From: Veillonella sp. KGMB01456
GTDB taxonomy: Bacteria; Bacillota; Negativicutes; Veillonellales; Veillonellaceae
Assembly: GCF_023051165.1 (NCBI RefSeq)
Contig: NZ_JALKIG010000010.1
Location: forward strand, 1-64,000
Length of the DNA: 64,000 nucleotides
Direction of reading: 5' to 3'
The notes below the pieces were generated by a model. The model did not search any database, had not been told where the DNA came from, and saw nothing but the letters and a program-made list of their open reading frames with translations. Position 1 is the stretch's first letter, and each line of letters begins with the position of its first letter. A program made the translations under genes and the position numbers. Positions 47,132 through 50,603 of the stretch are shown one piece after another.

Positions 47132-47332
47132 TCACTCCACAGGCTCACCATATAAGCGAATCATCCCCGATTTAGTAACTAACCAAGTTCCGCCACTCTT
47201 TCGGCACTCATCTTCAGTAAATCGTGGTGGTAGCCCTTTTTGTCCCAAACAATTTTGTTGAATAACAGCCTGTACTTTTCCCCATTTTTGTGCTGCTTCT
47301 TTCGTTGTCATTACCTCTTCTATCACTTTCAT
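47132..47332 (-). CDS. Small helix-turn-helix protein
   Basis: 66 residues. It has MTTKEAAQKWGKVQAVIQQNCL, a MerR/excisionase-like helix-turn-helix, then RFTEDECRKSGGTWLVTKSGMIRLYG, typical of a family of small phage- and toxin-antitoxin-associated DNA-binding proteins. It is separated from the lysis genes. After its TGA the frame stays open for 34 codons. Confidence 0.65.
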   Translation of the reverse strand: MKVIEEVMTTKEAAQKWGKVQAVIQQNCLGQKGLPPRFTEDECRKSGGTWLVTKSGMIRLYGEPVE

Positions 47333-48305: not shown

Positions 48306-48818
48306 TTAAGCCGTCCAATAGTCAGTAATGCCACGAGCAATTGCCCGGACCATTTTGTCTAAATCATTCTCTAAAATTGCTAGATCTTCCATGTTGTCGA
48401 TAAATGCCATCTCGACTAATACGGCTACTGTATCAGTGTTGTTTAGGACATATAAATTATCCGTTTTACAACCACGATCTATTGTAGGCACGCTGCGGAT
48501 AATCTGGGACTGGATAAAGTTGGCTAACCTCTGTCCATTAAATGACTTATAATACGTCTCTGTACCACGGGCCTGAGTATTAAATGCATTGCAATGCAGA
48601 CTTACAAATAAGTCAGCGCCCCACTCATTACTCTCTGCACAAACCAACGCTAAACTATCATCTTGCAGTGTCCTAACTTCAAGACCTGCAGTCTGTAAAT
48701 AGCCAGCTAACAGTTTACCTGCTTTAGCAACAATGTCACATTCACGGACTCCTGTTACCGGGTTGATAGCTCCACTATCATATACTCGGTCGTGGCCGGG
48801 GTTTATAAATACTTTCAT
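48306..48818 (-). CDS. Phage endolysin, N-acetylmuramoyl-L-alanine amidase (Amidase_3)
   Basis: 170 residues forming one catalytic domain: FINPGHDRVYDSGA (first zinc His), VSLHCNAF (second His) and VLVEMAFIDNMEDLAIL (catalytic Glu). It cuts the amide link between MurNAc and L-Ala. There is no signal peptide or wall-binding repeat, so release depends on the holin genes upstream. It lies directly after the Abi_2 gene. Confidence 0.93.
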   Translation of the reverse strand: MKVFINPGHDRVYDSGAINPVTGVRECDIVAKAGKLLAGYLQTAGLEVRTLQDDSLALVCAESNEWGADLFVSLHCNAFNTQARGTETYYKSFNGQRLANFIQSQIIRSVPTIDRGCKTDNLYVLNNTDTVAVLVEMAFIDNMEDLAILENDLDKMVRAIARGITDYWTA

Positions 48819-48865
48819 AGTTTTACCTCCTATTAGGGTATAAAAAAAGCACTCTAAAGAGTGCT

Positions 48866-49816
48866 CTATTCTAAAATATATTTTATTATATTCTTTGCAT
48901 CTTTCAAACTTCGAAAGCCTAATAAATGGGCCCTTTCTTCTGAGTCTCTACACAAACTAAATATTCCAGACTTTATATTTTTCCACCTATAATTAGGATT
49001 AATCGTATTAACCATATGAATTACTATACATAATACTATAGATAATCTATCAGTTGGATATGTTTGTTTTCCATCTCTCGATGTTCTTAGATATAAATAT
49101 GACATCCATTTTTTGCGATATTTTGGCTTAGTTTTCAATTTTACATCAATTAAATTTCCGTTATGAGCACATATGTTTCTAATGAAACTCAAACATTTCA
49201 TCCACGATAAAAATTCTTCCGATGTTGTATTATATTTAGCAGCTATATCTGATAATAAGCTAGAATTCAATAAATCTAATATTATAACTAGTTCCCCGAA
49301 AGTTAATAAATCAATTCCCAACCAAATAGTTGGAAACCCATCTTTATTTAAATTTTCTTTTCTAGAAAATTCTGGAGAATTTTGTCTTTTCATTGATTTA
49401 AGCAAACTAACTTTAAACTTATATTGCTTTTCTTCTACTTCGAATGATGAATACTTTTCTCTATGAACCCATTGATAAAATAATAAATAACCAAAAGGTC
49501 CATATTTTAATCCAAGTTTATGTGACAACTCAGTTTTTACTGAAACTTCTATCTTTTCTATTGCATGTAATAAATGAAGTCTTAAATTCTTATCCTGATA
49601 ATATCGCATAAGAACTTCACTAAACTTTATTCCCTCATATGATACAAAAACTTTATTCTGTATCTTTTGCGTTTTAGCAAAAGGATGCGCAAATTCTTTT
49701 AGTTTATAGTAATTTATATGTTTCAGCTTTTCAATATCTTTATCTAAAACTTCCATGCCTCGCTGTTTAAACAAGTCTGCCAACGCTTCAAATGTCAACG
49801 GTTTCGGATATTCCAT
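48866..49816 (-). CDS. Abi_2 (AbiD/AbiF-type) abortive-infection protein
   Basis: 316 residues from ATG 49816, which has better spacing (7 nt) to AGGAG than the adjacent ATG at 49819. The N-terminus PKPLTFEALADLFKQRGMEVLD and HINYYKLKEFAHPF are Abi_2 signatures. FIRNICAHNGNLID carries the HEPN RNase motif RxxxxH (Arg214 and His219 counted from the first Met). HEPN proteins of this family cut RNA during phage infection and cause abortive infection. The gene is strikingly AT-rich, is wedged between the holin and the amidase, and is preceded by its own promoter, a short RNA and a terminator, all signs of an independently acquired accessory gene (moron). Confidence 0.88.
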   Translation of the reverse strand: MEYPKPLTFEALADLFKQRGMEVLDKDIEKLKHINYYKLKEFAHPFAKTQKIQNKVFVSYEGIKFSEVLMRYYQDKNLRLHLLHAIEKIEVSVKTELSHKLGLKYGPFGYLLFYQWVHREKYSSFEVEEKQYKFKVSLLKSMKRQNSPEFSRKENLNKDGFPTIWLGIDLLTFGELVIILDLLNSSLLSDIAAKYNTTSEEFLSWMKCLSFIRNICAHNGNLIDVKLKTKPKYRKKWMSYLYLRTSRDGKQTYPTDRLSIVLCIVIHMVNTINPNYRWKNIKSGIFSLCRDSEERAHLLGFRSLKDAKNIIKYILE

Positions 49817-49829
49817 CATTTTCTCCTAT

Positions 49830-49889
49830 AAAAAAACCCCTACGCTCAGAATAAATCTGCTCACTAGGAGAGGTAGGGGGATTGTCTTT
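49830..49889 (-). ncRNA. Candidate structured RNA upstream of the Abi_2 gene
   Basis: The minus strand has a promoter (TTTACT 49919-49924, 17 bp, TAATAT 49896-49901) and then about 58 nt closed by the stem CCCCTAC (49873-49879) with GTAGGGG (49837-49843) and a run of seven U residues. Between the arms are CTCTCCTAGTGAGCAG and a small CAGA/TCTG stem-loop. The terminator ends only about 14 nt before the Abi_2 start, so the RNA is made in excess of the mRNA. A conserved RNA associated with AbiF-type genes has been described by comparative genomics; identity with it needs a covariance search. Confidence 0.7.
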
Positions 49890-49895
49890 ATACAT

Positions 49896-49924
49896 ATATT
49901 ATCATACTACAAATTAAAAGTAAA
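49896..49924 (-). promoter_or_regulatory. Promoter of the Abi_2-linked RNA
   Basis: TTTACT and TAATAT with 17-bp spacing; both hexamers match consensus at four of six positions. Confidence 0.5.
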
Positions 49925-49925
49925 G

Positions 49926-49961
49926 TTTATTTAAATATAGGCGCACTTTATTTAAATATAG
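49926..49961. repeat. Two 15-bp direct repeats upstream of the Abi_2 RNA promoter
   Basis: TTTATTTAAATATAG occurs at 49926-49940 and 49947-49961, 21 bp apart (two helical turns). The TTTAAA centre is palindromic, which may suit a dimeric regulator. Confidence 0.6.
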
Positions 49962-49999
49962 TTTTACCTCCTTATCTAATAATTAAGCCATTCTAGAAA

Positions 50000-50329
50000 T
50001 TAGAGTGGCTTATTATCATTATCTTCTAACTTATCTGGTATTCCGTTGTGGTTTTTATCTATCCAAAGCGCTAAAAACCCTACGATAACAGTAAGCACTG
50101 TTGGTATAAATATGTGATCTACAATCTTAATTCCGGTGTCAATAATACGGCCACTATCATCAGTCACTTTGCCGGCAGTAAATGCCATTACATAGGCCAT
50201 AATAACCACAATTATAGGGATTAATAACACACCTATCAACGCCCTAGTGGCTAGAACGCCGGTAGGCTTAATATTAGCAATGCGTATATTGCTATATATG
50301 GCTTTTATTCTATTGACTAGCTTATTCAT
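50000..50329 (-). CDS. Holin-like membrane protein
   Basis: 109 residues from ATG 50329, preferred over the upstream start because GAGGGG lies before it. Two membrane segments (ALIGVLLIPIIVVIMAYVMAF and FIPTVLTVIVGFLALWI) and a charged C-terminus (DKNHNGIPDKLED) fit a small phage holin. The neighbours, a second TM/coiled-coil protein and an amidase, support a role in lysis. Confidence 0.65.
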   Translation of the reverse strand: MNKLVNRIKAIYSNIRIANIKPTGVLATRALIGVLLIPIIVVIMAYVMAFTAGKVTDDSGRIIDTGIKIVDHIFIPTVLTVIVGFLALWIDKNHNGIPDKLEDNDNKPL

Positions 50330-50339
50330 ATACCACCCC

Positions 50340-50603
50340 TCACTCCAGATGCATTTTGCCGCAATGCTCTTGCATATCATCGAGACGTTTATGAACCGAT
50401 TTTACAGACTCTTCCAGTTTAGTAATACGATTATCCGCACTATGACTATCCTGACGCAACTGCTTAAATTCGACCTTAATATCATTTGTACTAGATTCAA
50501 TATTATTCAACTTAACAGTAATTGAGGATAAAGCGGCTCTTTCAATCAGACCTAATATAATGGCTGCAATGCTGACTATTGCTAATAAATCTTGCCAATT
50601 CAC
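50340..50603 (-). CDS. XhlA-like membrane and coiled-coil phage protein
   Basis: 87 residues. An N-terminal membrane helix (LLAIVSIAAIILGLIERA) is followed by a coiled coil (VKLNNIESSTNDIKVEFKQLRQDSHSADNRITKLEESVKSVHKRLDDM). This layout matches haemolysin XhlA-type lysis accessory proteins. It sits 10 nt before the holin-like gene. Confidence 0.6.
   Translation of the reverse strand: MNWQDLLAIVSIAAIILGLIERAALSSITVKLNNIESSTNDIKVEFKQLRQDSHSADNRITKLEESVKSVHKRLDDMQEHCGKMHLE

Follow-up and report, generated by a model that had tools for sequence, protein, structure and literature searches.

The stretch of DNA analysed here (the window) comprises 64,000 nt, positions 1-64,000 of the forward strand of contig NZ_JALKIG010000010.1 from Veillonella sp. 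KGMB01456 (assembly GCF_023051165.1). Within the lysis region of a prophage it carries an abi gene preceded by a short structured RNA, and the elements follow one another in the order repeat, promoter, RNA, terminator, abi, terminator, repeat (Table 1). This cassette lies between an amidase gene and a gene for a membrane protein. The label "holin" for the latter is a guess; a Pfam search of the 50000-50380 protein gave no match. The terminator that follows abi and the flanking direct repeats had been overlooked in the first-pass annotation. The insertion places two terminators (48846-48867 and 49830-49879) ahead of the amidase gene and behind that of the presumed holin, so late transcription would have to pass them or restart.

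Table 1. Features of the abi cassette and its neighbours, in window coordinates.
Feature	Position	Strand	Evidence
Amidase (Amidase_3, endolysin PHROGs), host gene of the insertion site	48306..48818	-	
Direct repeat ATAGTTTTACCTCCT (amidase RBS/start), one cassette border	48817..48831	.	
Intrinsic terminator after abi, before amidase	48846..48867	-	
abi gene, Abi_2/AbiF-type HEPN RNase, predicted catalytic R214/H219	48866..49819	-	profiles, fold, alignment
abi ribosome-binding site AGGAG	49823..49827	-	sequence
57-nt structured RNA, putative antitoxin ("class B"), single motif, outer stem is terminator stem	49830..49886	-	
Terminator seven-U tract	49830..49836	-	sequence
Three-way junction P1, P2, P3	49837..49879	-	sequence, consensus, covariation
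P1, CCCCTAC / GTAGGGG	49873-49879 / 49837-49843	-	
P2, CTC / GAG	49870-49872 / 49860-49862	-	window pairing by eye from homologues
P3, CAGA / TCTG	49856-49859 / 49847-49850	-	
Promoter-like TTTACT (49919-49924), 17 nt, TAATAT (49896-49901)	49896..49924	-	
Second copy of the 15-nt repeat, other cassette border	49958..49972	.	
Membrane protein taken as holin (PHROG 27828, unknown function)	50000..50380	-	

The abi open reading frame encodes 317 amino acids from its first ATG or 316 from its second. It matches Pfam Abi_2 (PF07751) at E 2.8e-37 with 129.2 bits, against a curated cut-off of 25.6, and PADLOC AbiD at E 3.1e-43. It carries the motif RNICAH, running from R214 to H219; alignments of 13 and of 26 homologues show R214 and H219 without exception, and N215 is kept in at least 90% of the 26; the original description of a 316-residue Abi_2 protein with an RxxxxH HEPN motif is borne out by the Pfam match and by this invariance. 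An AlphaFold2 model built with 26 homologues in the alignment has a mean pLDDT of 93.7, and its sole significant match in the PDB is 8VZ6 (E 3.8e-12, TM 0.72/0.77). The same entry is the closest solved relative by sequence (E 2e-17), R214 and H219 aligning with its R210 and H215; according to PMC12373285 and PMC12737573 it is a dimer of PbAbiF (Prevotellaceae) with ncRNA (Zilberzwige-Tal et al. 2025). The two proteins share fold and catalytic residues but are only ~22% identical. It is clear from the domain, the RNxxxH motif and the AbiF fold that the window protein is a full-length member of the AbiF/AbiD (Abi_2) HEPN family. Homologues of ~32-54% identity occur in streptococci, lactococci, lactobacilli, enterococci, staphylococci, fusobacteria and Veillonella relatives, and in their phages.

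Folding energy alone marks the RNA upstream of abi as mildly to moderately unusual (z -2.3). A covariance model (R1) was built from 38 homologous loci with the window excluded; searched against the window, it identified 49830-49886 on the minus strand at 41 bits and E 2.6e-7, the next match having E 0.8. Conservation takes the RNA far beyond chance, and the CCCCTAC/GTAGGGG stem with its seven-T terminator, as first annotated, is both present and conserved. Two inner hairpins, P2 and P3, had escaped that annotation. The model matches 61 homologous loci, with the RNA upstream of abi homologues and a common plan just 5' of the start codon: a leader xxCAAy, P1, P2, P3 (CAGA-loop-TCTG), P1' and a U tract. 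In the window, 10 nt separate the end of the T run from the first ATG, and 13 nt separate it from the second. An equivalent RNA-terminator precedes abi in many unrelated settings, so the terminator does not belong to the holin transcript. No recognisable RNA is present at four Companilactobacillus homologues (L064, L065, L069, L078). A frameshifted, unannotated abi homologue on Enterococcus faecalis plasmid CP110026.1 (L046) retains an intact class-B RNA. In another Negativicutes genome (L190:1501-1562) a class-B RNA lies directly 5' of an HTH_59 (excisionase-like) gene rather than of abi; the window prophage has an HTH_59-family gene at 47132-47332.

At the site equivalent to the window promoter, 80% of the homologues have a SigA-like TTGACA/TATAAT pair with two mismatches or fewer, compared with 2.1% of shuffled sequences. 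The promoter proposed at first, TTTACT-17-TAATAT, is present at this conserved site, but the window copy is weak relative to those of the homologues. Just upstream of it lie two perfect 15-nt repeats, TTTATTTAAATATAG, at 49926-49940 and 49947-49961, 21 nt apart, which resemble an operator or UP element. An anti-Shine-Dalgarno role was considered for the P2 loop (UCUCCUA), which in the window can pair over 7 nt with the ribosome-binding site of abi (UAGGAGA); it was rejected, as the homologues pair with their own ribosome-binding sites no better than with swapped ones.

In the class-B alignment, which was fitted to the structure by the covariance model, standard pairs fill 96.4% of pair cells, as against 78.5% in shuffled alignments and no more than 51% when the register is slid, and double-sided changes number 151 against 43 in shuffles. 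This excess of compensatory cells upholds the earlier proposal of a conserved structured RNA linked to the gene. The fourth pair of P3 varies between A-U, G-C and U-A in a MAFFT alignment also; from the latter RNAalifold did not predict P2, which the covariance-model alignment recovered.

The arrangement is comparable to that of AbiF in the Clostridioides difficile prophage phi027, where the ncRNA RCd22 lies upstream of the gene and has its own promoter, and most transcription ends at a terminator; read-through makes AbiF, and RCd22 has been shown experimentally to neutralise AbiF in trans by binding (PMC12373285). Both loci combine an Abi_2 HEPN protein, an upstream ncRNA with its own promoter, a terminator before the gene and a location in a prophage lysis module. 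RCd22, however, has a terminator hairpin distinct from its two RF03085 motifs, whereas the window RNA has one motif, of another family, whose outer stem is itself the terminator stem; stoichiometry and processing may therefore differ between the two. Type III toxin-antitoxin systems (ToxIN, CptIN, TenpIN) likewise have an RNA antitoxin (putative in the window), a terminator and a toxin gene behind one promoter, but their toxins have an unrelated fold and their antitoxins are tandem repeats, whereas the window RNA is present as a single copy.

By this comparison the window RNA is most likely the RNA antitoxin of Abi. On the analogy with characterised AbiF systems (PMC12373285), its own promoter would direct synthesis of an RNA of ~57-60 nt in excess, most transcripts stopping at the outer-stem terminator, and occasional read-through would supply the Abi protein; excess RNA and read-through had been suggested from the start. 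The three-way-junction RNA would then bind the Abi dimer and block the R-N-x-x-x-H active site. Were the RNA lost or displaced, for example upon infection by another phage, the RNase would cut cellular RNA and growth would stop.

The first-pass annotation had left the RNA as either an inhibitor or a guide or sensor of its protein partner, and it is the inhibitor that the analogy favours. A Cas13-like guide or target sensor comes to mind because Cas13 has been proposed to descend from AbiF (reviewed in PMC12737573). This role is, though, very improbable given a single copy with no repeat array at the locus, short unpaired stretches, of which the leader and the P3 loop are conserved and the P2 loop is tiny, and the lack of any variable spacer-like segment in the homologue alignment. 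Alternatively, the RNA could be solely a cis-acting attenuator, a terminator or leader that keeps abi expression low with no antitoxin role in trans. P1 and the U tract do form a terminator, deletion of RCd22 raises abiF expression 17-fold (PMC12373285), and AbiD1 has long been described in this way (PMC2661086). A terminator, however, requires neither conserved P2 and P3 helices with compensatory changes nor a CAGA-loop-TCTG element, and RCd22 acts in trans.

In the abiD1 system of Lactococcus lactis plasmid pIL105 a 50-nt transcript seen by Northern blot ends at a terminator just 5' of the gene, an arrangement reported without an antitoxin reading (PMC2661086). A short transcript ending just before the gene and a read-through mRNA are also predicted for the window. 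The difference is that translational activation by a phage protein, Orf1, has been described for AbiD1. Against the antitoxin model, the terminator upstream of abiD1 was reported to play no major part in translation (PMC2661086). The present results invite a second look at the 50-nt transcript, which may itself be an antitoxin. A tblastn search in plasmids gave no lactococcal abi copy among the matches listed.

The RNA had been expected to belong to the Rfam abiF RNA family, and here the expectation failed: an Rfam search of the window RNA gave no match above chance, RF03085 included, at E up to 10, and no RF03085 match at gathering score occurs in the window or in 28 genomes of the family. 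More distant Abi_2 genes (~25-35% identity) have a different RNA, class A, with the core ACGCCTCT...ATGCGNACCA, and the RF03085 model recognises it at several of these loci. RF03085 RNAs resemble class B in lying 5' of Abi_2 genes and in forming a short stem that ends in a terminator; they differ in their conserved core, and the class-B model gives no match at class-A Abi loci. In a tree of 90 Abi proteins a branch with 100% support separates all class-A from all class-B proteins. Class B is thus a second RNA family that tracks one Abi clade, the RF03085 type tracking the other; small groups inside the two clades have another RNA or none that is recognisable. The class-B family is absent from Rfam, and the AbiF covariance models of the 2025 Cell paper may include class B or the orphan copies described below. 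The window Abi groups with proteins of Bacilli and phages, apart from those of Veillonella relatives, which points to horizontal gain of the gene. Viral loci (L154-L162, L168) with Abi homologues of 36% identity carry a small upstream RNA/terminator, TCAAGTCCCCGGGCAATTATGTTCGGGCTTTTTTT, of neither class.

Genome searches with the class-B model also found some copies of the RNA with no abi gene. Exact patterns searched in IMG/VR, whose counts are not a census since both patterns are exact and biased, gave 28 class-B sites, followed by Abi in 16 cases, not in 10 and at a contig edge in 2, and 74 class-A sites, of which 6 are followed by Abi, 63 are not and 5 lie at an edge; a longer class-B pattern found nothing. 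No Abi-like stretch was detected at E 0.01 within 1.3 kb of the unpaired IMG/VR sites. By eye, L262 has a C-terminal Abi relic, and L282 has a weak N-terminal one. Among the 63 orphans of class A (within L233-L304) there are 42 different 5' flanks; these form a mean of 5.8 pairs with the 3' flank of the same copy and 2.0 with a swapped partner. Rfam RF03085 scores L234 above its cut-off and L263 just below (36.8 against 37 bits). For about a third of the class-A orphans a tRNA gene is no more than 400 nt away. Roughly one in three has C in GCGNACCA; in 12 Abi-linked copies the base is G in 8, T in 3 and A in 1.

Among the class-B orphans, seventeen have matches of E 3e-5 or lower and keep the structure. 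Orphan class-B loci of streptococcal phages are L181, L182, L210, L213, L214, L216, L218, L220, L224, L226, L229, L231 and L315-L319. In phages Javan129, 131, 523, 527 and phiGBSVK-D_GBSInt2.1 the class-B orphans are part of a non-coding array situated ahead of the terminase genes; such arrays contain sequences like tRNA 3' halves and, in some, a class-A (RF03085-like) copy directly after class B. Attenuation of abi cannot explain RNAs with a conserved stem in phages that have no abi gene, and a purely cis-acting role is improbable. The simplest reading of the toxin-free phage copies is a decoy antitoxin, and the chances seem slightly better than even that the stand-alone class-B and RF03085 RNAs of phages act as decoys, neutralising the AbiF-type RNases of hosts and of competing prophages. 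Alternatively, they could be a reserve antitoxin for use when a phage with an abi of its own grows lytically; Javan131, 146 and others also carry a complete abi. An abiF RNA has been noted in cyanophage S-CREM1, without the decoy reading (PMC9964418). Phage sk1, reported as protective against AbiF in a title cited in PMC12737573 (Rince et al. 2000), was searched for class-B or RF03085 RNA and none was found.

In two Veillonella relatives, G002 (L192) and G007 (L187), a class-B RNA lacking its toxin gene lies close to cas1 and a CRISPR array. A link to CRISPR was rejected, as related genomes have an abi gene at the equivalent place; the gene next to the G007 orphan is the one that borders an intact abi locus in G005 and G006. 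For that reason both copies are apparently leftovers of abi loss.

The cassette itself is a recent insertion that transfers between prophages as a unit. Its border repeats, perfect over 15 nt and 1141 nt apart, include the ribosome-binding site of the amidase. In four related prophages that have no abi, the gene for the upstream membrane protein directly abuts the amidase gene, and in another genome of the genus the cassette is 99.6% identical in nucleotide sequence whereas its flanks are 77% and 86% identical; the repeats, the empty sites and this disparity together establish recent insertion, and the disparity its movement between prophages.

The locus is very probably a self-contained, mobile AbiF (type III-like) module that pairs an RNA antitoxin with a HEPN RNase and travels as prophage cargo. 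The gene and its fold, the conserved RNA and its covariation, the promoter-RNA-terminator order, the co-segregation of RNA class with protein clade and insertion as a unit come from the present analysis; RNA binding, inhibition, toxicity and defence would follow from the characterised relatives. Exclusion of phages is suggested by these relatives, with maintenance of the prophage an equally possible function. It is less probable, if still a tentative option, that the module serves maintenance (addiction) instead of exclusion: this is a common role of RNA-antitoxin modules on mobile elements and has been raised for AbiF (PMC12373285), and the cassette does transfer between prophages as a unit, but AbiD, AbiD1 and AbiF of L. 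lactis are phage-resistance genes (PMC2661086, PMC12373285). With the antitoxin in cis, the two functions are compatible.

These results add a second, well-supported RNA family to AbiF systems, which are thought to be ancestral to Cas13, and tie it to a protein clade that includes lactococcal and streptococcal prophage genes. At 57 nt, the class-B RNA offers a minimal RNA for structural work. If the decoy reading is true, RNA mimics would be a widespread form of counter-defence against HEPN RNases.
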